33,326 nt of DNA from Bdellovibrionales bacterium RIFOXYC1_FULL_37_79. Its GTDB lineage: Bacteria; Bdellovibrionota; Bacteriovoracia; Bacteriovoracales; Bacteriovoracaceae. A model generated the notes under the pieces. The model did not search any database and was not told the origin of the DNA. It saw only the letters and a list, made by a program, of their open reading frames with translations. How positions within the stretch are numbered: position 1 is the stretch's first letter; every line of letters begins with the position of its first letter. The stretch is taken from contig MEQB01000047.1 in the NCBI GenBank assembly GCA_001770015.1, positions 1-33,326 of the forward strand, written 5' to 3'. The translations under genes and the position numbers were made by a program. Positions 5,098-33,326 of this stretch are shown here, in pieces.

Positions 5098-7416
5098 CTA
5101 ATTACCGAAAAGGCCCTTGAGCGGGTTTTTCTTTCCTTTAAGTAATCCGTTAAGCAGCTTATCTCCCTGCTCATCAATAAGTTTTTTTGCCGCTTTCTTG
5201 CCTTGCTGTTTCACAGCTCCTTCCGCAAGTTTCTTCAAAGTATAACCCGCATCTGGTTTAAGACTGAAGCCAATTCCTTTCAAACGTATCGGAAGAATTC
5301 TGGTTCCGGCTTCTTTTTCTAAAAATTTAGATATTCCCAATTCATCTTCACTCACCAACTCGATCGCACCTTCTTTCTTGAGAGGTGGTGGATAAAGCTC
5401 TCCGCTACCGGAAATTTTAATCTTTTGTTTGGCACCATCAAAAATAAATTTTTCAATCTGATATTTCGAATTAGAAAACACACCTTTTAATGAAAAAAGA
5501 TCAAATGAATCATCCAAGTCGAAAGCTTTGTCCGTATAATTCTTCAGAACCGCTACGCTACTGACGATATCTTCAAGATAATTTTTCAAATTTAAACCCT
5601 TTACTTCGCCTTTTTGGGCACTCATTTCCAATTTAACGTTGTATTGAGGTTCTTTTGCATCAGCGATAACAACATCCCCTGATGACGTTAAATTGGCTAT
5701 ACCATTAATTTTATCAATAGAGGGTGGTAGAAAAACTGTAAAACTGGAAAAATTAATATTTTTAGTGATGAGATTAAATTTGTTATCCAACACATTATTT
5801 TTGCCAATGTTAGTGGTATGAGTCAGGGCGATACTACCATCACCTAGCTTAAAATTCATCTCCTTGGTCTCGATTTTTCCATCCCGAATTTTAATATACC
5901 CTTTTCCAGAAAATTGGTCTTTATCTATATTAATCTGATTGATACCTAGGTAAATATCACAAGGTGGTAGCACCATAGGTGTTTTTTTCTCAGCAACCGC
6001 TACTTTAGAAATCTCTTTATCACTCTTCTCCTCAGGAGATGAGGTTTGTGCTTTTTTACCATCATTTTTGTATAAGATACCAGAAATCATATTACGCATA
6101 ATTTTCAAATTATTTAAATCAATTTTTACATTAAGCGGATTCATGGTTGCTAAATCAAATTTTTTAGCATTTGGATCAATTTTAGTACTAAGAGAAAAAT
6201 TAGTGGTGCCATCTAAAACTTTGGTAGTGGCACTGACATTAAAATCACTCTTTTTGAAACTTCCATTAATAGTTGTAGTTCCCTCTATCCCTTCATATTT
6301 AAAATTTATTCCAGGATTCATTTCAAATTTTAGATTTATATCAGCATGCTTTTCGTCCCCTAAGAGCTTGGTGTTCCCCGAAAGTGAAAATACGGCTTGA
6401 TTCATATCTAACATTTTATTATCAAAGCCTACTACTTTTAAGATTTCCGCCAGCTTTACTTTGACTAAAATATCATCAACATTAATCTCTTTTTTATTCA
6501 AAGAGTATTTGGCGTCCAACAAATCTACTTCTCCAAATTTGGTTTTAATAATTCCGTTAACCTCGCCTGTTTTAGAAACTTCCAGGTTGATATTGGTTTT
6601 TATTTCTGGAAGTTGGTTTTTGAGCTGAGCCATTTTAACATTATTCAGGATTATTTCAGTTTTGATTGGCAGTTTAGATTCTTGCACCAATTTATTTAGA
6701 TACAATTCTGCGATCACAGATACATCCAACGACCCTACATCTTTTATATTAATATTCGAAGCCAATTGAATAACTGTCTCTTTTTCAAAATTTAAATCTT
6801 TGATTCTAAATATTGAAACAACAACTTGCCCATTATTTCTTTTTGGTGAATCAAATAATGAATAATGAAGCTCGAGATTCTTCAATTCAAAATTTAATTT
6901 TAAAACACTCAAGAAACCAGGCAACGATAATTCACCAGATTTATTTTCTGCACCAGCCTTAGAATCAGTTATTGGACGAGTGGTAGACATTTCACTGGTT
7001 TTAGTTTCTTTACTTCCAAGGGCATAACCCCAATTATGTTCATCTTTTGAATACTGGTAATAATAAATCTGAGGAGAATCAAGAATGACTTCGACCTTTC
7101 CTGAACCTAAAATAATGGCCCACAACGGAACTTTGGCAAACATGTTTTTGACTTTAAATAAATTGGATGCTTTCTCCTTCTTATCAATTTTCAGCTCTAA
7201 ATCAGACACCTCGATTTTAGCATATAAACCAAATCCAATATCTAACTTTCCCAACTCTATTTTGGCATTAGGAAAAATCTGTTGCAATTGTTTAACAGTA
7301 AAATTTTTTACTTCGTCAGGGGTTATAATCGTAGAAGCATAAAAAATAGCGCCCGCCAGGAGTAATGCACACAAAGAAAAACCAGCACCCATAACAATTA
7401 ACAATTTCTTTTTCAT
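5098..7416 (-). CDS. AsmA-family protein, large envelope protein
   Basis: AsmA-family proteins are anchored in the inner membrane by an N-terminal helix and extend a long beta-rich domain into the periplasm; the family is linked to lipid traffic to the outer membrane. This 772-residue protein has a signal anchor (MKKKLLIVMGAGFSLCALLL), then the AsmA N-terminal region (KQLQQIFPNAKIELGKLDIG, IYYYQYSKDEHNWGYAL), many repeated amphipathic strands, a Lys/Ser/Glu-rich linker near 460-480, and a C-terminal AsmA-type region (DDSFDLFSLKGVFSN, KIKISGSGELYPP) ending in a Gly/Lys-rich tail. I choose the start at 7416 because GGAGG lies 8 nt before it and the signal anchor begins there; an in-frame ATG 18 nt upstream contains that ribosome site. 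A 72-nt gap separates it from pcrA upstream. Confidence 0.85.
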   Translation of the reverse strand: MKKKLLIVMGAGFSLCALLLAGAIFYASTIITPDEVKNFTVKQLQQIFPNAKIELGKLDIGFGLYAKIEVSDLELKIDKKEKASNLFKVKNMFAKVPLWAIILGSGKVEVILDSPQIYYYQYSKDEHNWGYALGSKETKTSEMSTTRPITDSKAGAENKSGELSLPGFLSVLKLNFELKNLELHYSLFDSPKRNNGQVVVSIFRIKDLNFEKETVIQLASNINIKDVGSLDVSVIAELYLNKLVQESKLPIKTEIILNNVKMAQLKNQLPEIKTNINLEVSKTGEVNGIIKTKFGEVDLLDAKYSLNKKEINVDDILVKVKLAEILKVVGFDNKMLDMNQAVFSLSGNTKLLGDEKHADINLKFEMNPGINFKYEGIEGTTTINGSFKKSDFNVSATTKVLDGTTNFSLSTKIDPNAKKFDLATMNPLNVKIDLNNLKIMRNMISGILYKNDGKKAQTSSPEEKSDKEISKVAVAEKKTPMVLPPCDIYLGINQINIDKDQFSGKGYIKIRDGKIETKEMNFKLGDGSIALTHTTNIGKNNVLDNKFNLITKNINFSSFTVFLPPSIDKINGIANLTSSGDVVIADAKEPQYNVKLEMSAQKGEVKGLNLKNYLEDIVSSVAVLKNYTDKAFDLDDSFDLFSLKGVFSNSKYQIEKFIFDGAKQKIKISGSGELYPPPLKKEGAIELVSEDELGISKFLEKEAGTRILPIRLKGIGFSLKPDAGYTLKKLAEGAVKQQGKKAAKKLIDEQGDKLLNGLLKGKKNPLKGLFGN

Positions 7417-22316: not shown

Positions 22317-24143
22317 CTATTTTCTCCTTCTAAATTTTTTCTTTATTTCTTCGGCACCAGTCGAAGCAGACGGAATAATTTCCGGGGTGATAAACATGAC
22401 AAATTGGGCCTTGCTTACTACATTCTGTTTACCTCTGATAAATGAAAATAATTTTTGCCCCTCTCCCTCTCTGGTTTTTTGTTGAGAAGGTGTATTAAAT
22501 TGAGTTTCATCTTTCTTATCAAACACTCCCCCTATCACGGCAGACTCCTTGCTTTTGACAATCAAGGTTGTTTTAATATTATTTTTAAGCGTTTCAATTT
22601 CCTCTTGGCTACGTCCCGAAATCGTATCCGAATTCATAACGATCTCCAGATCAATATTTTCATCCTTCAAAATTTTAGGTTTGACTTCCAGCTGATATCC
22701 TCCCTTGCTGGTCTGGCTCTTTTGAAATTCACCACTTCCTATCGGGTTAACTGATTCAATGGTTTTTTTAATCGTACCCACCACATCCTCTTTAACAATT
22801 AAAACGCTGGATTGAATAACCCTGGCGTGTCCAGCATTTTGAGCAGATAAGAGTTTAGGAAAAAGATCAGAAATAACCGCAGACAAAGTACTTCTGGAGT
22901 TGGTGGTAAGCCCTCCACTGGTTTTTCCCAACTGTATTTCTCCACCACTTCCTCCCAGCCAAGGCGACCATTCAAAACCAAAAACATCCGAAAAGGATTT
23001 GGTCAGCTCAACAAATTGAGCCGTAATCTTGATCAGTTTGGGCAAGGGTGGCTGATCTTTTTTTTCATTAACACTTATAAAATCCTGGATAATTGATCTG
23101 GGTACGGTTTCAATTCCGCCTTTTCTTTTTGCAAGAGACTGTATTCTATCGGGTAAAAACAGGGTGGCAATCCGGGATGCTTTTGATTTTTCATCATTAG
23201 AGGAGACCACCCCCTCCAACACAAAAGTTTTATGAATTATGCGCACATTCACTTGCCTCATTCCGGCGGCGTGAATTTCTTCTTGCATTTTTTTAGCAAC
23301 TTCCCTTTGCGTTTGAGGAGACAATTCCACTAAATTAACAATGTCGGGATATTTCTCTAAAATATACAAAATTCTTCCAATGTCGTCTGGGATAACTAAA
23401 AAACCATCCAACGTGATAGTATCCCCCACCACTTTTATTTCGATACCCTCGATATCCTTTAAAAATGATTGCAGATCTTGCAAAACTTTTGATTGCGCAT
23501 TAGTGGTAACTTTAATATTAAGGGTGAGCTTTTTATCAGGATCAGTATTATCCCTCAAAGTAACATTCGTTGTTCCAGGTTTTAAACCTTTTAAGGTTAT
23601 TTCCTTTCGACCCACCAAAAATTCATAATCCAAGACAGATCGATTCCCCACCTGAACCTGTCTATTGGGAATAAAATCCAACTCAAGGTGTTTATCCACA
23701 CCTAACACGACCTCAACTTCCATTTGTTCCGGCTTGATCTCTTCTGTTTTATTATCAACCTTATTATCCTCGGCTTGTAATTCATCCGGTTTTACTGATG
23801 ATGAATCCGCTTGTGCCGTCTCTTTTACCTCTGGTTCTTTTGGCGGCTCCTCTTTCACTTCCTCGGACGAAAAACCCGATGATGGAACTTCGCTAACCGA
23901 AGTAGTCTCTTCTTTCCCTGCTTCCTTTTCTTTCCCTTCTTCCTTTTCTTTCACTTCTTCCGTGACTTCGGCTTGAGTTTCAGATGTTTTAGTCTCGGTC
24001 GCCGGTTCTTCCACCTCTACTTTTTCGGTCTGCGTATCAGCTGATTCTACACTGGTTTCAGTCTCTGTATCCGTATCAGTATCTTGCGAAAAAGCCAGAT
24101 GAATAAAACAAATAGTAAAAATTAAAATTATAATTTTTTTCAT
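22317..24143 (-). CDS. cpaC: CpaC/RcpA-type outer-membrane secretin of the Tad pilus, with acidic N-terminal extension
   Basis: The secretin forms the outer-membrane ring through which the Flp pilus leaves. A signal peptide (MKKIIILIFTICFIHLAFS) is followed by about 120 residues made mostly of Glu, Thr, Ser, Lys and Val (for example EVKEKEEGKEKEAGKEE), which is not usual for the family. From about 145 come the pilus-specific N domain (DKHLELDFIPNRQVQVGN), two BON/N1-like modules (KDIEGIEIKVVGDTITLDGF, NVRIIHKTFVLEGVV), and the secretin core from about 370 (LPKLIKITAQFVELTKSFSD, ENIDLEIVMNSDTI, ESAVIGGVFDK, QFVMFITPEIIP). The C-terminus is basic (KKKFRRRK). It starts 3 nt after cpaB. Confidence 0.92.
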   Translation of the reverse strand: MKKIIILIFTICFIHLAFSQDTDTDTETETSVESADTQTEKVEVEEPATETKTSETQAEVTEEVKEKEEGKEKEAGKEETTSVSEVPSSGFSSEEVKEEPPKEPEVKETAQADSSSVKPDELQAEDNKVDNKTEEIKPEQMEVEVVLGVDKHLELDFIPNRQVQVGNRSVLDYEFLVGRKEITLKGLKPGTTNVTLRDNTDPDKKLTLNIKVTTNAQSKVLQDLQSFLKDIEGIEIKVVGDTITLDGFLVIPDDIGRILYILEKYPDIVNLVELSPQTQREVAKKMQEEIHAAGMRQVNVRIIHKTFVLEGVVSSNDEKSKASRIATLFLPDRIQSLAKRKGGIETVPRSIIQDFISVNEKKDQPPLPKLIKITAQFVELTKSFSDVFGFEWSPWLGGSGGEIQLGKTSGGLTTNSRSTLSAVISDLFPKLLSAQNAGHARVIQSSVLIVKEDVVGTIKKTIESVNPIGSGEFQKSQTSKGGYQLEVKPKILKDENIDLEIVMNSDTISGRSQEEIETLKNNIKTTLIVKSKESAVIGGVFDKKDETQFNTPSQQKTREGEGQKLFSFIRGKQNVVSKAQFVMFITPEIIPSASTGAEEIKKKFRRRK

Positions 24144-24146
24144 AAT

Positions 24147-24953
24147 TTATTTTTTCTCACTATATTTTTGCTGAAAAAACAATTTTGCTTCCTGGGCGTC
24201 ATCCCCAATGACATCAAATACTTTGGTCGGTTTGATTTTCACCCGGTCTCGGTCATTATTATTTCGTAATACCAGATAAGGATCAGCGTTGAAATTAAGT
24301 AAAAAAACCAACTGTTGCGCTTCAAAAGAGGTCACCTCTAAAGTCACCGTATTATAGTTGGTGTAGGTGTTTAATTTCATCGCTTCAATAACCTTATCCG
24401 TTTTTCTTCCATACATGGGAAGTGAATTGGTCATATCAAACCCAGTGGAAAGCACCAGCACATCCTGCAAAACCGTGGATACCTTTTGAATATCTTTTCT
24501 GCCGGAGGCATAGTCGATCGAAGCCAGGACATCCACTCGATCTCCCGGCTTGACTAATTTACTGACCGCCGTTCTATCACTAATCAAAATGGCAATGGCC
24601 CTCTTATCCGGACTAACTTGTCTGGACAATCCGGTTTTTACTCCAGGATAATCGACCCGGGGTTTGGTAATTTGCTCTCCTTTTTTAATAGGAACCATGG
24701 CCACCGTATTCATTAATTCTTTTTTACTTTTAAAGTTACCAGGCTGGGCGAACTTCATTGGCACCGCAATAGTATCAATCATGGAATCATCAATTAGCTC
24801 CAATTCATTAATATCTCGTGAGGCCACTATTACAGTTTGAGACTGCCCATATTCTTTTTTAACTTCACTTATTTCGCTATCTACATACGTCCATACGATT
24901 ACCATGGCCAAAACCGCCAGAATCAGTGCTAATGAAAATGAACGTGTATTCAT
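24147..24953 (-). CDS. cpaB: CpaB/RcpC-type Flp pilus assembly protein
   Basis: CpaB is a periplasmic, inner-membrane-anchored protein that works with the secretin. The 268 residues start with a signal anchor (SFSLALILAVLAMVIVWTYV), then a SAF domain (QTVIVASRDINELELIDDSM, IKKGEQITKPRVDYPG), a second beta-rich domain with RAIAILISDRTAVSKLVKPG then DRVDVLASID, and TVTLEVTSFEAQQLVFLLNF at the end. Ribosome site GAGG at 8 nt. A 105-nt gap containing a hairpin at 25024-25041 separates it from the TadE-like gene upstream; a promoter there is possible. Confidence 0.9.
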   Translation of the reverse strand: MNTRSFSLALILAVLAMVIVWTYVDSEISEVKKEYGQSQTVIVASRDINELELIDDSMIDTIAVPMKFAQPGNFKSKKELMNTVAMVPIKKGEQITKPRVDYPGVKTGLSRQVSPDKRAIAILISDRTAVSKLVKPGDRVDVLASIDYASGRKDIQKVSTVLQDVLVLSTGFDMTNSLPMYGRKTDKVIEAMKLNTYTNYNTVTLEVTSFEAQQLVFLLNFNADPYLVLRNNNDRDRVKIKPTKVFDVIGDDAQEAKLFFQQKYSEKK

Positions 24954-25023
24954 AATATAACCTCACCCAATTATTTGATTTTATTTTATCAGACTTGATG
25001 ATGACTTTCGGACATGGGGAAGT

Positions 25024-25041
25024 TTTGTCCTAGTGGACAAA
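25024..25041. repeat. perfect inverted repeat between the TadE-like gene and cpaB
   Basis: TTTGTCC and GGACAAA flank a 4-nt loop (TAGT). It follows the TadE-like stop by 18 nt (minus-strand direction). No T-run follows on the minus strand, so it is more likely an mRNA-processing or segmental-stability hairpin, or a protein site, than a terminator. Confidence 0.45.
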
Positions 25042-25058
25042 TACCCGAGCAAAACAAT

Positions 25059-25574
25059 TTATTTTTTGCGGGAGCAATAGGCGGAAGACCAGGCCACACC
25101 GCTCATATCTGAATAATCTGCTTGGTTATTGAGCTTATAAACATACGCACTACAAACACCATACATCGTAACCGGCCTGATAAATTTTGATTTTGCATTC
25201 CTGCCATGAACACTGCTCGTATTATCACATACATCGCTGGCCTGGTTAGTAATTAGGGACTGTAATGAATAGCAAGGTGCAACGGCTTCTTCCCCGATAG
25301 CATAATCACTCCAGCCTATTACATTGGTCCCCACCATTGCAACTCTTCCAACCAAGGTAGTCAGATCCTGCATAAATGGACCACGAGGATTTCCCTTGAC
25401 CAGAAAATAAAAATACCCGCGTGTGGCTTTTTGCTGATTAATTGATCCATTGATGGATGCGGAAATAGTAATCGTCATCAAAAAAATAATCATGATCAAA
25501 GGCAAAAAAATCACAAACTCCACAATCGATTGCCCGCTTTCAAAATTATTTTTTCTATTTTTTATTTTTTTCAT
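25059..25574 (-). CDS. TadE/TadF-like minor prepilin (second)
   Basis: A basic N-terminus (MKKIKNRKNNFES) is followed by the prepilin cleavage motif G-QSIVEF and a hydrophobic helix (VIFLPLIMIIFLMTITISAS), then a periplasmic domain with four cysteines (CYSLQ, DVCDN, GVCSAY, YCSRKK). Five residues after the cleavage Gly comes Glu, as in TadE-family pseudopilins processed by CpaA. It starts immediately after the upstream TadE-like gene (3-nt gap) and has only a weak ribosome site, so it is probably translationally coupled. Confidence 0.82.
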   Translation of the reverse strand: MKKIKNRKNNFESGQSIVEFVIFLPLIMIIFLMTITISASINGSINQQKATRGYFYFLVKGNPRGPFMQDLTTLVGRVAMVGTNVIGWSDYAIGEEAVAPCYSLQSLITNQASDVCDNTSSVHGRNAKSKFIRPVTMYGVCSAYVYKLNNQADYSDMSGVAWSSAYCSRKK

Positions 25575-25577
25575 TAT

Positions 25578-26141
25578 TTAGCAACCATTGTCGTATAAAG
25601 TATAGTGCACCAGTGACTCACAACCACCGCCGACACCCAGCATGGCATAACAAATCCTTTCAGCACATTCCGCCCTGGTTGGCTCACGTCCTAAATAGGA
25701 TTCTGATTTTAAATTCATTGCATCTTTCACACCGATTAGGCCAAAACTGAATTTTTGTTTAAAATCAAACCCCACCCCTACGTAGGGAAATCCGACCACC
25801 GAATCGGGATTATTGACAAAAAAACTACCCTTGGCTGGATTGAGATATTTCGCAAACACCCTCTGTGCTTCACTTAAGGCGATGGCATCTGAACCATTGG
25901 GACGGTTGGCATTTACATCCACCACCAGATAAGTCCGGCTCGCCATAAACGTTGCATAATGCACGATGTATCCGTCTGTCGCATTAAAGGCAATACTAAA
26001 AAATAGAAACACTATCCCCAGGCTAAACGAAAGAGTCATTATAAATTCGATTAATGACTGGCCTTGATTAGTTTTTTGGGTACTCTTCCAAGGGAGTAAA
26101 AAAATGTGTCCCGCCTTTTTCAACATTAAAGTAGAGTTCAT
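25578..26141 (-). CDS. TadE/TadF-like minor prepilin (first)
   Basis: Long basic leader (about 26 residues), cleavage motif G-QSLIEF, then hydrophobic helix IMTLSFSLGIVFLFFSIAF and a periplasmic part with four cysteines near the C-terminus (AECAERICYAMLGVGGGC) and a fifth as the last residue. The start is supported by a near-perfect ribosome site (GGAGGA) but lies inside the upstream pilin gene, so the two overlap by 74 nt in different frames. It probably forms part of the pilus base or tip, as known for TadE/TadF. Confidence 0.82.
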   Translation of the reverse strand: MNSTLMLKKAGHIFLLPWKSTQKTNQGQSLIEFIMTLSFSLGIVFLFFSIAFNATDGYIVHYATFMASRTYLVVDVNANRPNGSDAIALSEAQRVFAKYLNPAKGSFFVNNPDSVVGFPYVGVGFDFKQKFSFGLIGVKDAMNLKSESYLGREPTRAECAERICYAMLGVGGGCESLVHYTLYDNGC

Positions 26142-26376
26142 GTACTCCTCCGGTTCTGGTTACCGAAATATCCCGGCTTCCTGGTGCCCCATGCCGATAG
26201 GAATATTCCATATAATTTTTTAATGCCACAAAAAATTCAGAATCTTTTCCCATAATCTGTTTAAACTTATCACTTCCTAAAATAGACATGGTAATTGCAG
26301 CCATGACCGCAAATAAAAGCAAATACTCCACCGTGCTTTGGCCGGTAGATAAAAAATCCTTCCTAGTAAACATCAT
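26068..26376 (-). CDS. Flp/TadE-like prepilin with C-terminal domain
   Basis: From this start the leader is MMFTRKDFLSTG, then QSTVEYLLLFAVMAAITMSI: a G-x4-E-Y prepilin motif and hydrophobic helix as in Flp pilins. Unlike a ~60-residue Flp protein it carries a further 65-residue soluble part (DKFKQIMGKDSEFFVALKNY ... GGTHFFTPLEEYPKN), so it may be a minor pilin or a TadE-type protein. The frame is open further upstream, but I place the start at the tandem ATGs 26376/26373, which lie inside the end of the peptidase gene, leaving a short overlap of 14 nt. It overlaps the next gene at its own end. Confidence 0.75.
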   Translation of the reverse strand: MMFTRKDFLSTGQSTVEYLLLFAVMAAITMSILGSDKFKQIMGKDSEFFVALKNYMEYSYRHGAPGSRDISVTRTGGVHELYFNVEKGGTHFFTPLEEYPKN

Positions 26377-26869
26377 ATATATAATCCAGAATAAACAAAA
26401 CCCATGCAATCATCATCACAGGAGCAAAAGGCATTTTTTTTCCTAAAATTGCTCGCATAATATTCTTATAATTTCTCATTAAATATTCATGATAAATCAT
26501 CACCCGTCTATTATAGGCCCGAAATAACAAATTGAAAATTGAGACAAAAATTGTGGTCACCAGCAAACTAGTAAAGTATTCATCATGAATTTCCAAGGGT
26601 AACATCAGGTAAATGCTGAATAAAAATTTGGCATCCCCGGCACCCATTAAATTAATGGCAAAAAGTATGAATCCAAGAATTAAAAATGAAACCGGATAAA
26701 GAAAAATATTCCAGTCAAATATATAAATTTCTGATAAAAATAAATAGAATAAAACCGTTATTGCAAGATTTAATATAATCCAATAATTTGAAATTTTCTT
26801 GTCTCTAAAGTCTAGATAGGAAACCATAATCAGTTCAATTAATACAAAAATGACAATTGTTAGCTTCAT
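26363..26869 (-). CDS. cpaA: CpaA-type prepilin peptidase (A24 aspartic protease)
   Basis: This small integral-membrane protease cuts the leader from Flp and TadE/F prepilins. It has 168 residues and about six hydrophobic helices. The catalytic aspartates are visible: Asp20 in YLDFRDKKISN and Asp79 in the MGAGDAKF (GxGD) motif. MPFAPVMMIAW near the end is the usual family signature. There is no N-terminal methylase domain, as normal for Tad systems. Its ATG overlaps the stop codon of the preceding Flp-like gene in an ATGA. Confidence 0.92.
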   Translation of the reverse strand: MKLTIVIFVLIELIMVSYLDFRDKKISNYWIILNLAITVLFYLFLSEIYIFDWNIFLYPVSFLILGFILFAINLMGAGDAKFLFSIYLMLPLEIHDEYFTSLLVTTIFVSIFNLLFRAYNRRVMIYHEYLMRNYKNIMRAILGKKMPFAPVMMIAWVLFILDYIYDVY

Positions 26870-27084
26870 TCTTCGTCTGGAATAGAATTCCGGTAATGCT
26901 CAAAATAACAAGTATTCTTGCAAACTCCGGTTTTTAGCTGTCTGGACAGCACCACCGCCAAGCCGCCAATATTGGATGCCAAAAAACCGTGAATTGCCTT
27001 GGCCAGATTAAAAGCTATAATTGACATCATTGCAAAAAAAATAAGATATTCGATAACCGCCTGCCCGGAAGATTTTTTTCTCAT
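26866..27084 (-). CDS. second Flp-like pilin
   Basis: 72 residues: MRKKSSG leader, then QAVIEYLIFFAMMSIIAFNL with the G-x4-E-Y motif and the hydrophobic helix, then FLASNIGGLAVVLSRQLKTG and two cysteines (VCKNTCYF) that could form a disulphide. A longer frame starting at a TTG (27126) exists, but that TTG lies in the terminator hairpin of the first flp gene, so I take the ATG at 27084. It has no clear ribosome site; a TATAAT lies 6 nt upstream on the minus strand. Confidence 0.78.
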   Translation of the reverse strand: MRKKSSGQAVIEYLIFFAMMSIIAFNLAKAIHGFLASNIGGLAVVLSRQLKTGVCKNTCYFEHYRNSIPDEE

Positions 27085-27110
27085 AGTTAAATTATAGGAG
27101 AAAAGCCAAA

Positions 27111-27138
27111 AAAAAGGTAGGATCAATTCCTACCTTTT
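27111..27138 (-). terminator. intrinsic terminator between the first flp gene and the rest of the tad operon
   Basis: An 11-bp stem (AAAAGGTAGGA at 27112-27122 with TCCTACCTTTT at 27128-27138) with a 5-nt loop is followed on the minus strand by a T8 run (complement of the As at 27108-27115). It lies 83 nt after the flp stop codon. It would let the major pilin mRNA outnumber read-through into the assembly genes. Confidence 0.82.
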
Positions 27139-27220
27139 AAATATAAGCACCTAAAACGGTCTAAACTTTTTAAACCTAAAAAAAGACATTTCCCTTTCTC
27201 GAATACATTCCGTTTAAACC

Positions 27221-27412
27221 TTACTGAAGTTCGCTCATTTCTTGCACTAAACCATCCGCATTGTTAAACACACCATCTATAAGCTTGCCGAGTCTATCTA
27301 TGGCAGCTCCCTTGAAACGAAAGACAATAAGGGCCACCACGGCAAGTAATAAAATGTACTCTGTGGAGGTCTGTCCATCCTCATTTTTTATAAATCTCAA
27401 AAAAAGACTCAT
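27221..27412 (-). CDS. flp: Flp major pilin
   Basis: 63 residues: MSLFLRFIKNEDG leader, then cleavage before QTSTEYILLLAVVALIVFRF, matching the Flp G/x4-E-Y motif and length, then a short helical tail DRLGKLIDGVFNNADGLVQE. The start at 27412 has AAGGAG 7 nt upstream; the frame extends to 27469 but those residues are basic and not pilin-like. It has its own strong promoter and terminator, fitting the abundant pilin subunit. It would be cut by the CpaA peptidase encoded 350 nt downstream. Confidence 0.88.
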   Translation of the reverse strand: MSLFLRFIKNEDGQTSTEYILLLAVVALIVFRFKGAAIDRLGKLIDGVFNNADGLVQEMSELQ

Positions 27413-27534
27413 CCACTTTCTCCTTAAAACTTTTCTCCGACACATTTCTATGAAAACATATCGGTACAATATAAAAACTCTTAAGCTAAGTTCACAATTT
27501 TTCTAACCCGAGAGTAGTCATATCGTACCCTTTA

Positions 27535-27563
27535 ATTATAACTCAAAGCGCAATCAATTTCAA
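27535..27563 (-). promoter_or_regulatory. strong sigma-70 promoter for flp
   Basis: On the minus strand: -35 TTGAAA (27563-27558), 17-nt spacer, -10 TATAAT (27540-27535), start near 27528. This leaves an untranslated leader of about 115 nt before the flp ATG at 27412. Five of six and six of six consensus matches with ideal spacing. Confidence 0.7.
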
Positions 27564-27654
27564 TCAACTAAACATATTCTGTTTTAAAAATTTAATAAAA
27601 AAAATAAAAATATCATCTAACTGATTGATTTTATAATCATAACCAAAACATTTC

Positions 27655-27684
27655 TTGAGTCCATAGCTGATTTCTTGCTATAAT
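27655..27684 (+). promoter_or_regulatory. promoter of the 6S RNA gene
   Basis: -35 TTGAGT (27655-27660) and extended -10 TGCTATAAT (TATAAT at 27679-27684), 18 nt apart, giving a start near 27691. It diverges from the flp promoter about 90 nt away. Confidence 0.7.
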
Positions 27685-27690
27685 CCCAAG

Positions 27691-27872
27691 TGGGTCTTGT
27701 AGTTGGCACAAATATTTTCTGCCCTACAACCATAAGTACGGGAGTGGTCCCTGATCACGGTGTGCAAGCTCATGTGGACTTCGGTCGACTGATGAGAAGC
27801 CTAAAGTGGTTAATTACTGCGCCCACCTGTCTAATAGAGGCAGGAAAATCCAGACCACCTACTAGACCCATT
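27691..27872 (+). ncRNA. ssrS: 6S RNA
   Basis: 6S RNA mimics an open promoter and binds the housekeeping RNA polymerase holoenzyme. This stretch is GC-richer than its surroundings and has the 6S features: AGTGGTCCCTGA (27743-27754), a central arm CTCAT...ATGAG (27769-27796) closed by a TTCG tetraloop between GAC and GTC, the conserved GAGAAGCCTAAA after it, CTGCGCCCACCTG, and a small 3' hairpin CCTG...CAGG. GTGGTC (27744-27749) pairs with GACCAC (27853-27858), and GGGTCTTGTAG (27692-27702) pairs with CTACTAGACCC (27859-27869) with one mismatch. A competing 5' hairpin, TTGTAG...CTACAA, is also possible. Conserved motifs were recalled from E. coli 6S RNA. Ends are approximate. It has a clear extended -10 promoter and no coding frame. 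Confidence 0.82.
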
Positions 27873-27896
27873 ATTTGCCCCCTTAGACAATAATTC

Positions 27897-27925
27897 TTGA
27901 CAATACAGGTCATTTTTCTCATCAT
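27897..27925 (+). promoter_or_regulatory. candidate promoter for the unknown 175-residue protein
   Basis: A perfect -35 TTGACA (27897-27902) is followed after 17 nt by CATCAT (27920-27925), a weak -10. The start would be near 27932, 46 nt before the ATG. Confidence 0.45.
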
Positions 27926-27977
27926 TAAACATAGACATACATCTATTTAAATACATTGATTAAATTGGAGTTCAAGT

Positions 27978-28505
27978 ATGAACGAAATCACCGTAAGACA
28001 GGAAGAATCAACCAAATGGCTTGAAGATTTAGCCTTGGATGAACTTAACATGGATGAGTCGGGGATTATTAATTTTGGCGAACACATCAATCCCTCTCAC
28101 TTACTTGAAGAGTCTTCCATCGGTTTCATGAATGAACTAAGAGATTTATTTGAAGTCTATGTTACAAAATTTAACGAATACAGAGGCGGAACAACGAACT
28201 TGTCCCAAATTAAAATTTTTAAAATATCAAATACTGTAAACGATTTTATGCTCTTTAGAAATTCGCTTCGACTTATCTTTAATCGAAGGGCAAACGACCT
28301 GATCACGATTGGTTTTATAGCGTCCAATGGTGAACTCCTGTCAGCCAGAATGAGCACCGGTAACAACCATGAATCCGTTCACGAAATCAAGGCACATCTG
28401 GGACCATTCAATAACATCACCTGGCGATTCCACGGGGAAACGGTTGCCACCAGAGCACTGGTTCGCCATTATTTAAGTGAGTTTATTAAAAATTCGGCGA
28501 GATAA
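27978..28505 (+). CDS. unknown cytoplasmic protein
   Basis: 175 residues, no signal peptide or membrane helix. The N-terminal 45 residues are acidic (KWLEDLALDELNMDESG). The rest looks like one alpha/beta domain: FMNELRDLFEVYVTKFNEYR, SQIKIFKISNTVNDFMLFRN, RANDLITIGFIASNGELLSA and ITWRFHGETVATRALVRHYL. I do not recognise the family. The start is supported by GGAG with 7-nt spacing and by its own promoter. It lies alone between the 6S RNA gene and the HExxH/beta-helix gene. Confidence 0.8.
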   Translation: MNEITVRQEESTKWLEDLALDELNMDESGIINFGEHINPSHLLEESSIGFMNELRDLFEVYVTKFNEYRGGTTNLSQIKIFKISNTVNDFMLFRNSLRLIFNRRANDLITIGFIASNGELLSARMSTGNNHESVHEIKAHLGPFNNITWRFHGETVATRALVRHYLSEFIKNSAR

Positions 28506-28637
28506 AAATTCTAAATTTCGGTAACAGATATTTTGGATCAATTCGTTCGCAGCGTGAAAATATTTCAGACACAAATTAATTTATTGCGAGAAATTCAGAT
28601 CATGTTATTATGCGTGCAAATTAACAGTACCACTGTG

Positions 28638-28679
28638 CTTAAAATTAGTCCTTGTTTCTTCAGAGTGTAGAATTTTAAG
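28638..28679. repeat. 9-bp inverted repeat upstream of the HExxH/beta-helix gene
   Basis: CTTAAAATT (28638-28646) and its exact complement AATTTTAAG (28671-28679) are separated by 24 nt. They lie just upstream of the presumed promoter, so they may be a regulator site or a weak hairpin. The remainder of the 249-nt space before the gene shows no coding frame. Confidence 0.35.
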
Positions 28680-28701
28680 TTTTGTCTAAATGACTGGTAC
28701 C

Positions 28702-28729
28702 TATAATTAATAGTTTCTGCCTGGCAGAA
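28702..28729 (+). promoter_or_regulatory. -10 element and operator-like palindrome before the HExxH/beta-helix gene
   Basis: TATAAT at 28702-28707 predicts a transcription start near 28714. Directly there lies a palindrome, TTCTGCC-T-GGCAGAA (28715-28729, 7-bp arms), in the place where a repressor would block transcription. No good -35 is visible at 16-18 nt, which fits a promoter that needs an activator or is weak. The palindrome is not the Bdellovibrio-type LexA box as I know it. Confidence 0.45.
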
Positions 28730-28754
28730 TTTAGTTAAACAAGAGGTACATCTC

Positions 28755-30335
28755 ATGAAAACTTTATTTTTTATTTTCCTTTCAATTTTCTTAACTGTAA
28801 ATGCATTCGCTGTGGGTGGCGGAGTGGTTGGCGATGGAACTCGCATGGTTACTTTACCCAGCGGAGAAATAGTTCCAGAAGATTTTATTTTGGAGTTTCA
28901 GGACGAAAAACTTTCACTCAAGCCTGTCATTCTTGAAGAAGATTTTTCAGACGTTTATAAAGAATTAAAAAAATTTGGCCAGTTAATACAAGTTAGACAA
29001 TTTCATCCTTCATTCAAAAAAGAAGAATTTTTACCCATCAACGATTTACGTAGAAGTGGTTTAATGTTTTATTTAGTTGATGAAGTTAATAAGGTTAAGT
29101 GTGGCAGGGATCTTGATGCATGTGCTTATAAATTGCAAACCTACAATGCTTCTTCTTACAAATTCGAATATGTTTCAGTGATTGAGCTAAAAAGAAAAAC
29201 AATGACTAACCCTAAAATTTCAGCAAGAAAAAAAGCCTTGATTGTGCTTCATGAAATGTTACATCATGACGATACGATTCTGCGACTTGCACCAGATTAT
29301 AAGAACGAAGTACATAGGTTGATTTCTCCGTTCGTAACAAAACTAAATATCTTAGAAAATGCATATGCCAAACAAAAGGCTCTTTTTGCCAAATCAAATG
29401 AAATGTATCAACTAACCGATGAAGAATATGAGGCTTCAGTTGAATTTCAGAAGATATTGAGTATTCTCGGTTACGATAACGAAAATCCACGCGCTGGTGA
29501 AAAATGTGCTACAACGATTTCCCGTTTAGGCGGTGGTGTCATCATACTATGTACAGATACCATTGAAATGAATGAGAATAATTATGTAAGCATCGATTCT
29601 GAAGTCTCATTTCATGACAATTCTCCGCGGTTAAATAAAAAATTAGAATTTAACGACAATATGGTTATAGATAGTATTATTAATTCTTATGGTGCTGTTG
29701 CATTAAACGATTCAATAATCAAAAACAGCAATATAGTAATAGCTGCTGGACGTTTCGTGAATATGTCAAGTTCAAAGATTTTCAAGAGTGATATTCGTTT
29801 GTATGAAAGTACGTTTAATCAAGCAAATATTTTAAACACAATTATTAAGCATGGTTATATTACTTGCGACGGTTGTACAATAAAAAATTCAAAGGTAGAA
29901 AATACCTCCTTGAGTGGTAAGTGGAATTTTGTCATTGACTCTGTAGTTATTGATCTAATCGTTAAGAATACCAATTTCATTAATACAAAGTGGAACCGTG
30001 TAAAATTGTTTAGCGAAGAATTAAGTGACAAAGGGGAAATAATCACATTTGACAATTGTACATTACAAAACAAAGAATTTCGCCTTCAAACGATAATTAA
30101 CAAAGCAAAAGAAGCCATTGTAGTTAAAAATTGGAATATGGATATGAACACTTTTGTGGATGGTGAATTATTAATTGATAAGAATGCTGAATCGGAAATT
30201 GCATTTGATCTAAGTAAAACTTATGTGATCTCTGGCATATATAAAAAAGACGGAAAGCGTGTACCGAAGTTACCAGTTCTAAAATCTGTTTATCAATTTG
30301 AAAAAGACTATCCACAATTCATTAAGCAAAAGTAA
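28755..30335 (+). CDS. secreted protein with HExxH motif and beta-helix-like C-terminal half
   Basis: 526 residues. Signal peptide 1-19 (ending NAFA), then VGGGVVGDGTRMVTLPSGE. A helical region carries ALIVLHEMLHHDD: His166-Glu167-x-x-His170 is a zinc-metallopeptidase-type motif followed by His171-Asp172. Cysteines occur at about 116, 123, 251 and 266. From about 270 to 460 the protein consists of short Ile/Asn/Ser-rich strands of similar length (INSYGAVALNDSIIKNSNIV, KSDIRLYESTFNQANI, CDGCTIKNSKVENTSLSGKW), suggesting a right-handed parallel beta-helix as in surface or polysaccharide-binding proteins. I cannot name a family, and protease activity is inferred from one motif. GAGG ribosome site at 8 nt. 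The regulator gene follows after 10 nt, so the two form one operon. Confidence 0.82.
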   Translation: MKTLFFIFLSIFLTVNAFAVGGGVVGDGTRMVTLPSGEIVPEDFILEFQDEKLSLKPVILEEDFSDVYKELKKFGQLIQVRQFHPSFKKEEFLPINDLRRSGLMFYLVDEVNKVKCGRDLDACAYKLQTYNASSYKFEYVSVIELKRKTMTNPKISARKKALIVLHEMLHHDDTILRLAPDYKNEVHRLISPFVTKLNILENAYAKQKALFAKSNEMYQLTDEEYEASVEFQKILSILGYDNENPRAGEKCATTISRLGGGVIILCTDTIEMNENNYVSIDSEVSFHDNSPRLNKKLEFNDNMVIDSIINSYGAVALNDSIIKNSNIVIAAGRFVNMSSSKIFKSDIRLYESTFNQANILNTIIKHGYITCDGCTIKNSKVENTSLSGKWNFVIDSVVIDLIVKNTNFINTKWNRVKLFSEELSDKGEIITFDNCTLQNKEFRLQTIINKAKEAIVVKNWNMDMNTFVDGELLIDKNAESEIAFDLSKTYVISGIYKKDGKRVPKLPVLKSVYQFEKDYPQFIKQK

Positions 30336-30345
30336 GGAGGACATA

Positions 30346-31233
30346 ATGACAATCAATACTCCTCCCAACAACATTGAACTCTCCGTATTCAAATACACTG
30401 ACTACCGAGAGTACTTAAATGACTTGAAAAATGCTCTTGAAAATGAAGATAACAAGCTGACTTATCAGGATTTTGCGGACATTCTGGGAATAAGTTCAAG
30501 AACCAAGATAAAAAAAGTGTTTAAAGGTGAAATTCCCCTAACTAAAAGTGGAATGGAAAACCTGTGCAAGCACTTTGGTTTAAGTAAAACTGAATCCACT
30601 TATCTTGATATGCTTCGGCTTTTTAACGAGAGTCGTGATTCCGATATGGCCTTGTCGATTTATAATAAGATCATTGATCTTAGAAAAAAACATGGGCCTA
30701 AACAAGAAAATCATGAACTCGAAGAAACTCAGCTTCGCCTGCTTGAAAAATGGTACTACCTTCCGATTTTAAGCTATATCGGACTTAAGGGGGCATCTAG
30801 TGATGTACTCGCCATTGTAAAAGCTTTTAAGGGGCAAATAACCGTGGAAGAGGCCAGTGAAGCAATACGAATTCTAGTTGATATCAAACTGCTTAGATAT
30901 ACCGACGAAGGAGTAATAGAGAATACTCATGATAGTGTGTCTTTGCTTGATGGTATCCCAAGGCAACTCGTTAAAAAATTTCACTCTCACATGATTAATA
31001 AGGCCCATGATGCGATCTCTGGAATGCCTCAAGAGAAGCGGTATCTGATGAGCTCAACAATAAATGTAAAAAGCAGCATGCTACCAGAAATCAAGAAAAA
31101 GATTTCCAAGTTTATGGTTGAAATTTGCAGAGACTATTCGGTAGATGATGCTGATTCGATCTACCAACTCAATACCCAGTTTTTTAATTTAGCTGTGGTA
31201 AGCGAGAACCCAAACAGCTTGGTAAAGGAATAA
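30346..31233 (+). CDS. TIGR02147-family protein (putative DNA-binding regulator)
   Basis: 295 residues matching the TIGR02147 pattern, a family expanded in Fibrobacter and Bdellovibrio relatives: FKYTDYREYLNDLKNALENE at the start, then a helix-turn-helix-like stretch TYQDFADILGISSRTKIKKV and LTKSGMENLCKHFGLSKTES, then WYYLPILSYIGLKG and a winged-helix-like second half with VEEASEAIRILVDIKLLRY. The family is presumed to regulate transcription; its targets are unknown. I choose the ATG at 30346 because AAGGAGG lies 5 nt before it; an earlier in-frame ATG at 30298 falls inside the previous gene. Being second in an operon with a secreted protein, it may control that operon through the palindrome at 28715-28729, which is inference. 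Confidence 0.9.
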   Translation: MTINTPPNNIELSVFKYTDYREYLNDLKNALENEDNKLTYQDFADILGISSRTKIKKVFKGEIPLTKSGMENLCKHFGLSKTESTYLDMLRLFNESRDSDMALSIYNKIIDLRKKHGPKQENHELEETQLRLLEKWYYLPILSYIGLKGASSDVLAIVKAFKGQITVEEASEAIRILVDIKLLRYTDEGVIENTHDSVSLLDGIPRQLVKKFHSHMINKAHDAISGMPQEKRYLMSSTINVKSSMLPEIKKKISKFMVEICRDYSVDDADSIYQLNTQFFNLAVVSENPNSLVKE

Positions 31234-31237
31234 AAAC

Positions 31238-31281
31238 AATCACCCCCCTCTTATTGAAATTCGATATGAGGGGGGGTGATT
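31238..31281 (+). terminator. GC-rich hairpin after the TIGR02147 gene
   Basis: AATCACCCCCCTC (31238-31250) pairs with GAGGGGGGGTGATT (31268-31281) across a 17-nt loop, 5 nt after the stop codon. Only short T runs follow (TTTGTTGT), so termination may be moderate. Confidence 0.65.
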
Positions 31282-31337
31282 TGTTGTAATAGCTTAGAAT
31301 TGTTGCATAATATTCCGGCGCTTCAATAATAAAAATT

Positions 31338-32309
31338 CTAAATATAAACGATCCCCTCGTCTTTACTTCTGCCTTTTTTATCCAGGCCCATAAATCTTTT
31401 ATAGGTAAGTCCCAACGACTCTTCCACTGTAGGCATTTTTATATTTAAAAAATTTTCTATATTCATAATATCCATCTTGAAAAAGATGTCTCCCCCTTCC
31501 CATGAACTCGTTGAGGAACTCATAATTGGAAAAACCCAATTCCCCTTGGCCAGATTGCGATCCAGTTGATGAAACACTTTACAATAAATTTTAGCAAAAT
31601 CGTATACTGTATAATAATCCTTGGAGCTCACTTGAAAAAGTCGGTTAATGGCCTGTTTGTCTATGGCCAGTTTAATAACCATTCCAAGATAATATGGATC
31701 TAGGTAACCATGATGTACCTTATTGTCACAAACCATTTGCTCTCCTAACTCATTTTTTTCTTGAATAACCTCCAGTAACGTTTTCTGTCTAGCCGCCACA
31801 CTTCGTCCATACATCATGGAACATCTGAAAATTAAATAATTGAGTGAGGTTCTTTGAATAAAAAACTCTGCCGAGGCCTTAGTTTTACCAAGTACCGTTA
31901 AAGAATCAGGTATATCGGATTCAATATATTCCTTATCAACCCCACCAAATACATAAGAGCTGGATATATAAATAACTTGCGCCTTATATCTCTGACAATG
32001 TTCTGCCACATTAAAAAGTCCCAACGCATTGAGGGTCTCTGCATAATCTGGCGCTTTGGAACACTCATAAACGGACGATAACCCAATTGCATAAATAACA
32101 TAATCTGGTTTAAAGGTAAAAATCGCCAATTGAACTTGCTCTTTGACCATGACATCACATTTGATGGTTCGCACTCCCTTCACATAAGTTCGATGCTGAT
32201 GATAAGTCCCAATCACCCTGTAATAATTAGAAAAAAATTCAGCCAAAGCCGAACCCACCATGGAAGAAACCCCAAAAATCATAATCGTTTTAAATTTATT
32301 ATCTGACAT
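31338..32309 (-). CDS. RmlD/epimerase-like NAD(P)-binding protein lacking the catalytic tyrosine
   Basis: Extended short-chain dehydrogenase of the dTDP-4-dehydrorhamnose reductase (RmlD) type: Rossmann motif IFGVSSMVGSAL (11-22), PDYVIYAIGLSSVYEC, VIYISSSYVFGG (112-123) and ESDIPDSLTVLGKTKASAEF. In active enzymes the last motif is Y-x-x-x-K; here Leu140 replaces Tyr while Lys144 remains. The later part (FRCSMMYGRS, NKVHHGYLDPYYLGMVIKLA) fits the family. It may bind a nucleotide-sugar or cofactor without the usual reduction. It lies downstream of flagellin on the same strand but after a terminator. There is no ribosome site at the ATG; TATAAT sits 7 nt upstream. Confidence 0.82.
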   Translation of the reverse strand: MSDNKFKTIMIFGVSSMVGSALAEFFSNYYRVIGTYHQHRTYVKGVRTIKCDVMVKEQVQLAIFTFKPDYVIYAIGLSSVYECSKAPDYAETLNALGLFNVAEHCQRYKAQVIYISSSYVFGGVDKEYIESDIPDSLTVLGKTKASAEFFIQRTSLNYLIFRCSMMYGRSVAARQKTLLEVIQEKNELGEQMVCDNKVHHGYLDPYYLGMVIKLAIDKQAINRLFQVSSKDYYTVYDFAKIYCKVFHQLDRNLAKGNWVFPIMSSSTSSWEGGDIFFKMDIMNIENFLNIKMPTVEESLGLTYKRFMGLDKKGRSKDEGIVYI

Positions 32310-32316
32310 AAGTATT

Positions 32317-32344
32317 ATTATATTTTAGAAACAGCAAATACCAA
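32317..32344 (-). promoter_or_regulatory. candidate promoter giving a leaderless RmlD-like mRNA
   Basis: On the minus strand: -35 TTGGTA (32344-32339), 16-nt spacer, -10 TATAAT (32322-32317). The predicted start, near 32310, is 1 nt before the ATG, and no ribosome site is present. Confidence 0.45.
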
Positions 32345-32363
32345 GACTTATTATGAAGAAAAT

Positions 32364-32395
32364 AAAAAACCCTTGCTTCATCCGAAGCAAGGGTT
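32364..32395 (-). terminator. intrinsic terminator of the flagellin gene
   Basis: AACCCTTGCTTC (32368-32379) pairs with GAAGCAAGGGTT (32384-32395), a perfect 12-bp stem with a 4-nt loop; the As at 32364-32369 give a T tract on the minus strand. It lies about 20 nt after the flagellin stop codon. Confidence 0.9.
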
Positions 32396-32415
32396 ACACT
32401 GGTTATCTTACTTTT

Positions 32416-33249
32416 TTAGTCTAATAATTTTAAAGCTACTTTCGGAAAACTATTGGCATTACTTAAAACAGACACCCCAGATTGCATCAAAATGTTATTT
32501 CTAGTGAGATCTGCTGTCGCTTGGGCCACATCCACGTCCCTAATTCTCGAATTTGCCGCCGACAGATTCTCATCAGTAATAGCAGTTGTATTAAGTACTG
32601 ATGTAAGTCTATTTTGTACTGCCCCCAGTTCCGCACGAACACCGTTAACTTGCACCAAAGCATCATCCAATTTCTTAAGTGATGTTTGGGCACCAATTTT
32701 TGTCGCAACTGATTCTTCAGACAAACCCAAAGATCCAAGCGTGGCATCCGATTTAGCAGCATCATAGCGCAGCCGATCCAACATTGGGTCATTATGAATT
32801 CCAATTTGAAACTCAAGATTACCCCCTGTACCGTCCAACAATTTAGTACCGTTGAACTCAGTCGACTGGGCAATTCTATCAAGCTCTTCTTTAATTTGCT
32901 GGAACTCAATATTAGCAAATGCTCTTTCCGCATCACCAACAGTGTCGGAAGCAGCCTGTATCGAGAGTTCCCTGAGCCTGATAATGATGTTTGAAACTTC
33001 ATTCAATCCACCTTCTGCCGTTTGCACCAGCGAAATAGCATCACCTGCATTTCTTCTGGCCTGTCTAATTCCTCTAATTTGCGCCTTCAAATTCTCGCTT
33101 ATTGCCAATCCTGCTGCATCATCACCCGCTTTTGTTATACGCTCACCTGAAGACAAAGCTCTCAAGTTTTGATTCATTGATCTGGTCGTATTACTAAGCG
33201 ATCGTTGAGCTGCCAAGGACGGAATATTTGTATTTATTCTTAAACCCAT
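32416..33249 (-). CDS. fliC: flagellin
   Basis: 277 residues, matching Bdellovibrio-type flagellins. The N-terminal D0/D1 region is conserved (MGLRINTNIPSLAAQRSL, LSSGERITKAGDDAAGLAIS, AGDAISLVQTAEGGLNEVSN), as is the C-terminal part (RAELGAVQNRLTSVLNT, SRIRDVDVAQATADLTRN, NILMQSGVSVLSNAN). The variable middle is almost absent. The last residues are SFPKVALKLLD where many flagellins have QQPQLALKLL. It polymerises into the filament after export. The ribosome site is AAGGAG at 7 nt. A five-codon open frame with its own AGGAGG site precedes it. Confidence 0.96.
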   Translation of the reverse strand: MGLRINTNIPSLAAQRSLSNTTRSMNQNLRALSSGERITKAGDDAAGLAISENLKAQIRGIRQARRNAGDAISLVQTAEGGLNEVSNIIIRLRELSIQAASDTVGDAERAFANIEFQQIKEELDRIAQSTEFNGTKLLDGTGGNLEFQIGIHNDPMLDRLRYDAAKSDATLGSLGLSEESVATKIGAQTSLKKLDDALVQVNGVRAELGAVQNRLTSVLNTTAITDENLSAANSRIRDVDVAQATADLTRNNILMQSGVSVLSNANSFPKVALKLLD

Positions 33250-33251
33250 AT

Positions 33252-33269
33252 TTAATCTCCTTTACACAT
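33252..33269 (-). CDS. possible five-codon leader ORF before flagellin
   Basis: On the minus strand AGGAGG (33281-33276) lies 6 nt before ATG-TGT-AAA-GGA-GAT-TAA (peptide MCKGD). Its end covers the ribosome site of flagellin, and its stop codon is 2 nt from the flagellin ATG. It may be a translational leader or simply a second ribosome site. Confidence 0.35.
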   Translation of the reverse strand: MCKGD

Positions 33270-33326
33270 AATAAACCTCCTGTTTTGTTATAAAGACTTC
33301 ATGTCTTACAAATTTTGTTAATCGTT

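Follow-up and report, generated by a model that had tools for sequence, protein, structure and literature searches.

A secreted HExxH protein and a TIGR02147 regulator form a two-gene unit in Bacteriovoracaceae that is missing from a same-genus genome

The DNA analysed here (the window) is a stretch of 33,326 nucleotides (nt) from Bdellovibrionales bacterium RIFOXYC1_FULL_37_79, a member of the predatory family Bacteriovoracaceae (GenBank assembly GCA_001770015.1, contig MEQB01000047.1, positions 1 to 33,326). At 28755-31233 it carries a gene for a secreted protein with a HExxH motif, P0001, followed after a gap of 10 nt by a gene for a TIGR02147-type regulator, P0002. An earlier model-made reading of the letters alone (the sequence-only reading) had described the two as a unit that joins a HExxHHD secreted protein to a TIGR02147 protein, and its coordinates and motifs were right. 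The unit is conserved in three genera with its HExxH motif, the pair belongs to a wider class of TIGR02147 genes that adjoin genes for secreted proteins, and its site is empty in a genome of the same genus. We consider it fairly probable that the pair is an accessory operon, gained as a block and autoregulated, in which the TIGR02147 regulator controls the adjacent secreted zincin-like protein.

Results

Orthologous pairs in two further genera

P0002 matches the whole NCBIfam model TIGR02147 (Fsuc_second; 164.9 bits, cut-off 50, E 2.5e-48, residues 13-283). Its C-terminal part is a DUF4423 domain (PF14394; 99.6 bits, cut-off 30, E 2e-28), and its N-terminus has weak similarity to HigA-type helix-turn-helix structures of the PDB. 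The family is present in 102 of 114 genomes of the phylum and paralogous expansion is typical. P0002 represents a distinct clade of it: among 129 genomes of the order, orthologues were found only in G022 (45% identity, contig JAGLPP010000087.1) and G039 (37%, JABIHA010000020.1), metagenome-assembled genomes of Bacteriovoracaceae that represent two other genera of the family. The remaining matches, at about 28% identity, are paralogues.

In G022 and G039 the gene directly upstream of the regulator encodes a secreted protein (loci L145 and L031, gaps of 12 and 30 nt). The two-gene order anticipated by the sequence-only reading is thus kept in both genomes with an orthologous regulator. The three secreted proteins are orthologues with only ~24-29% identity, and those of G022 and G039 likewise carry a HExxH (HEFSHH, HEILHY) and, behind the signal peptide, a G-rich motif. 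Conservation of the HExxH, likewise expected, was found (HEMLH, HEILH, HEFSH), and its H, E and H hardly vary across 20 aligned related sequences (alignment A6). Signal peptides were called by a simple heuristic of our own, applied equally to TIGR02147 units and to background genes.

The mature P0001 begins with VGGGVVGDG, which includes the glycine motif GGGVVGDG (residues 21-28). P0001 is single-copy in its 4.36-Mb genome. It has no match among Pfam and PDB sequences, its best NCBIfam match (E 0.04) is not significant, and a scan of the genome collection gave 84 pattern matches, none of which was confirmed.

Two observations concern the orthologous loci. In G039 (L031:7987-9671) a frame change at a short tandem repeat divides the secreted gene into two overlapping reading frames; phase variation, decay and an assembly error are possible causes. 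In G022 two short secreted open reading frames (ORFs) lie upstream of the pair (L145:3090-4073); the signal peptide of the first is nearly the same as that of the HExxH protein, and this ORF looks like a partial duplicate.

A class of TIGR02147 genes beside secreted genes

The genome of the window has 38 TIGR02147 matches (about 36 genes), and neighbours could be called by script for 35 of the genes. A predicted secreted gene lies directly downstream, on the same strand and within 60 nt, at 20 of these 35, many overlapping by 4 nt, compared with 27 of 328 background genes (8.2%; Fisher p 2.5e-11). At three a secreted gene lies directly upstream and at seven it is divergent within 500 nt, giving 30 of 35 with any secreted neighbour. 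At one more TIGR02147 locus, which the gene caller had overlooked, a secreted gene likewise follows downstream. The suggestion that the module could recur in the genome therefore holds for the kind, as about 30 TIGR02147 genes adjoin secreted genes, mostly in the opposite order, and fails for the exact pair. In other genomes, a secreted gene is directly downstream at 16 of 19 TIGR02147 loci, which had been picked solely by similarity to P0002.

Twenty-five of the partners have in common a GNGG-like motif behind the signal peptide and, about 110-145 residues on, a hydrophobic helix with HExx[H/Y/W], a class that is defined here and for which no Pfam name was found. P0001 likewise has the signal peptide, the glycine motif, the HExxH and the adjacent TIGR02147 gene. 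It differs in having no significant single-sequence similarity to the class (hhalign, 13%) and in its long N/S-rich C-terminal half, common only to the G039 partner and lacking in that of G022. A profile of the window and G039 proteins aligned to the class with a probability of 74%, and with G022 added 93% was reached.

The association was also recovered from the side of the secreted proteins. Profile A3, built from the three secreted proteins and blind to TIGR02147, found four further loci in the 129 genomes (E 7.6e-8 to 4.3e-4), all of which adjoin TIGR02147 genes, in two cases with a lipoprotein gene in between; its matches below E 1e-3 were exclusively TIGR02147-linked secreted proteins. 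A second profile, run on 369 genomes of the phylum, gave ten more loci, nine of them beside a TIGR02147-type gene, so that 13 of the 14 new significant loci from both searches lie beside such a gene. By these profile comparisons, the window pair is a divergent member of the class with the order reversed: the secreted gene comes first, where the regulator usually does. In a tree of 65 regulators, from which that of G039 was left out, the divergently arranged ones form one supported clade, and those of the window and G022 stand on their own long branch.

Variants of the class were observed. HExxY occurs at L063, L064, L065, L067, L072, L076 and L081, and HExxW at L066 and L079, some of these partners having MORN_2-like repeats behind the motif; HExxY and HExxW may mark a metal site that is non-canonical or has been lost. 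A subfamily with HELGH or HEAGH (L068, L155, L160, L162, L163) has an extra small secreted gene just upstream of the regulator, forming a three-gene unit. At L153 and L157, in two genomes of family f3, the TIGR02147 genes have no secreted neighbour and lie beside a ribosomal protein L9-like gene.

A zincin-like domain is likely in the secreted protein

AlphaFold2 gave the G022 partner a confident core (residues 51-190, predicted local distance difference test (pLDDT) mostly >85) of three strands and a long helix that contains the HExxH. With this model, Foldseek placed zinc peptidases at ranks 1-4 and 8. The N-terminal half of the secreted protein, a GNGG-like motif followed by the HExxH helix, is thus likely, and not proven, to be a zincin-like domain, because these matches are zinc peptidases but reach only E 0.2-0.7. 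The HExxH in a long helix after three strands is likewise found in zincin metallopeptidases such as that of Grifola frondosa (1ge6/1g12), the SprT/Wss1 type (6mdw) and AsaP1 (2x3c), from which the secreted proteins differ by the weakness of the structural match, the lack of a sequence match and, in P0001, the lack of an identifiable third ligand.

The C-terminal half of P0001 had been read as beta-helix-like, and this could not be confirmed: its hydrophobic periodicity is not significant (p 0.67), nor is that of the G039 partner (p 0.08), it has no Pfam or PDB match, and the AlphaFold2 model of P0001, made from a four-row alignment, has a mean pLDDT of 33, which makes it unusable. The surface location assumed by the sequence-only reading is, like the beta-helix, conjectural.

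The region upstream of the pair

Ahead of the first gene of the pair, at distances of 25, 22 and 26 nt in the window, G022 and G039, respectively, stand palindromes of the pattern WTCTR-N5/6-YAGAW. The pattern is found in none of 350 background upstream regions; it and the tolerance were chosen after the three sequences were seen. The palindrome in the window is a candidate operator (Table 1). The promoter scan found sites no more numerous than in shuffled sequences, and a TATAAT at 28702-28707 is not accompanied by a good -35 element. A strong, terminator-like hairpin follows the regulator gene.

Gain of the pair as a block

In G001, a genome of the same genus, the stretches that correspond to window positions 23946-28517 and 31328-33326 abut (L197), with proteins 97-99% and DNA 83-92% identical to the window; the block between them, which holds the pair, is missing. 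The same two genes that flank the block also sit next to each other, in convergent orientation, in G022 and G039, whose own pairs lie on other contigs; therefore the empty state is most likely ancestral, and the comparison of these genomes suggests that the window genome most likely gained the block. The two-gene cassette was probably acquired as one block. Both this empty site and the occurrence of the ancestral arrangement in two further genera support the view of the pair as a self-contained module. An RmlD-like reductase gene and a flagellin gene (31338-33249 in the window; L197) lie beside the insertion site; both are present in G001 and G022, and the reductase gene in G039.

Exact 15-bp direct repeats flank the block, where the maximum of the gene-pair background is 14 bp, and the empty site of G001 has a single, diverged copy. 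The block has two genes only, neither of them a recombinase, and no long inverted repeats joining its ends were found. An integron, or direct repeats as a general feature, was considered and rejected, long flanking repeats being present at only two of 31 units, the window (15 bp) and one on contig C37 of the same genome (25 bp inside a 127-nt repeat). The C37 unit lies between 127-nt direct repeats that are 90% identical (L063:4463-4589 and 7259-7385); the repeat has a third copy at L101:1853, ahead of an ORF that may be a transposase remnant.

Other units also differ between the two genomes: that at L066:2078-5155 is missing from G001 (3.08 kb against 38 bp) and that at L082:2510-5147 is replaced there by 500 bp. 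The L066 empty site showed no repeats, which leaves a single shared integration mechanism unsupported. The two genomes have five TIGR02147-bearing loci in common. G001 has eight TIGR02147 matches (about six genes) against about 36 genes in the genome of the window, a difference that is an upper bound because the G001 genome is far smaller and its completeness about 85%; this incompleteness leaves the empty site itself unaffected. Like regulator-plus-cargo accessory cassettes in general, the pair has its own regulator, its own upstream region, a terminator-like hairpin and presence or absence as a block; it differs in having no integrase or transposase, and its 15-bp repeats are not general to other units.

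Table 1 Features of the two-gene block and its borders in the window
Feature	Position	Strand	Remarks
Left direct repeat ATAAAAATTCTAAAT	28502-28516		Overlaps the stop of the upstream gene (27978-28505)
Block missing from same-genus G001	28518-31327		Flanks joined in G001
Palindrome TTCTGCCTGGCAGAA, candidate operator	28715-28729		25 nt before the first gene
Secreted gene, P0001	28755-30335	+	526 amino acids (aa); first gene of the pair
Sec signal peptide MKTLFFIFLSIFLTVNAFA, called by own heuristic	28755-28811	+	P0001 residues 1-19; AFA cleavage motif
HExxH (HEMLH)	29250-29264	+	P0001 residues 166-170; extended motif HEMLHHD, residues 166-172
C-terminal half of P0001	29520-30332	+	N/S/I-rich; AlphaFold2 pLDDT <40; periodicity not significant
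Ribosome-binding site AAGGAGG of P0002	30334-30340	+	Overlaps the stop of the secreted gene
TIGR02147/DUF4423 helix-turn-helix regulator, P0002	30346-31233	+	295 aa; ATG start at 30346
Strong hairpin, terminator-like	31235-31286	+	-28.7 kcal/mol, z -5.2; not flagged by T-run scan
Right direct repeat ATAAAAATTCTAAAT	31329-31343		Beside the end of the convergent RmlD-like gene (31338-32309, minus strand)

Discussion

We propose that P0002 probably binds the palindrome before the first gene and thereby controls P0001; control at this position, by repression or activation, would let P0002 set its own level too. P0001 would be exported by Sec, and its N-terminal zincin-like domain is probably a metallopeptidase whose place of action may be the periplasm, the cell surface or other cells, the C-terminal half being a putative lineage-specific, strand-rich part. 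DNA binding, the direction of control, zinc, proteolysis and the site of action or target are what we infer in this model. We found no published description of regulator and secreted protein pairs of this pattern, and an earlier account elsewhere is possible; nor was TIGR02147 mentioned by name in the literature that the search reached, most subscription journals being beyond it.

Several results weigh against the proposal. On the regulatory side, the secreted-then-regulator order of the window pair is by itself not enriched among TIGR02147 genes (p 0.29). A palindrome score comparable to the shared one arose in 27 of 200,000 random triplets, a figure that is post hoc because the tolerance was widened after a narrower first setting had given an observed score of 0. 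An operator common to all TIGR02147 operons was considered and rejected, the palindrome not being found before the others. On the side of the secreted protein, the P0001 model is unusable and the Foldseek E-values are weak. The third metal ligand, clear in relatives with HExSHHxxGxxDH, is not identifiable in P0001, where the spacing departs from the HExxHxxGxxxH of its relatives. Many partner proteins carry HExxY or HExxW instead of HExxH, so that their common function may be something other than catalysis.

The last two points are also what would be expected if P0001 were a non-catalytic structural or adhesin protein whose HExxH is a structural remnant of the zincin fold: close partner families have HExxY or HExxW, and P0001 combines the lack of a clear third ligand with a long unrelated C-terminal part. 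We regard this as rather unlikely: overall identity is very low, and yet the proteins of the window, G022, G039 and almost every HExxH relative in A6 have retained the H, E and H, as is expected of a functional metal site.

Control by P0002 of genes elsewhere, for instance as a predation or growth switch, seems to us unlikely. The secreted gene would then be a hitch-hiker, or else the sensor end of the system, signalling to the regulator through the protein or its export state. We know of no targets of TIGR02147 proteins, which leaves room for such a role, and the DUF4423 protein Bd3700 of B. bacteriovorus is strongly up-regulated at prey exit (PMC12546842). Hitch-hiking is difficult to reconcile with the adjacency of secreted genes, kept over some 30 divergent paralogues in many genera, often with overlapping frames, which is not expected by chance; this argument bears on hitch-hiking rather than on the sensor version.

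That the pair is instead a toxin-antitoxin-like or selfish cassette, which persists by being addictive or mobile and brings no benefit to the host, is very improbable: block gain and loss, the direct repeats, the autoregulatory layout and the far lower number of TIGR02147 genes in G001 would suit it, but the presumed toxin carries a Sec signal peptide, and a cytosolic regulator could not neutralise it once exported, the block has no recombinase, and the paralogues diverge like ordinary cargo.

Beyond the proposed autoregulation of the window pair, we suggest tentatively, and with less assurance than for the pair itself, that TIGR02147 proteins may be dedicated local regulators of secreted zincin-like proteins across the Bdellovibrionota, and that the pairs, with between 1 and some 36 TIGR02147 genes in a genome, may form an exchangeable repertoire of cassettes that come and go as blocks and diversify what these bacteria export. 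TIGR02147 is heavily expanded in these bacteria, and the pairing gives each regulator a neighbour as candidate target. Through the same link, dozens of unnamed secreted proteins acquire a family, a likely zincin ancestry and a way of spreading. Should the secreted repertoire indeed be swappable, the pairs may underlie differences between predatory or related species in their extracellular targets.
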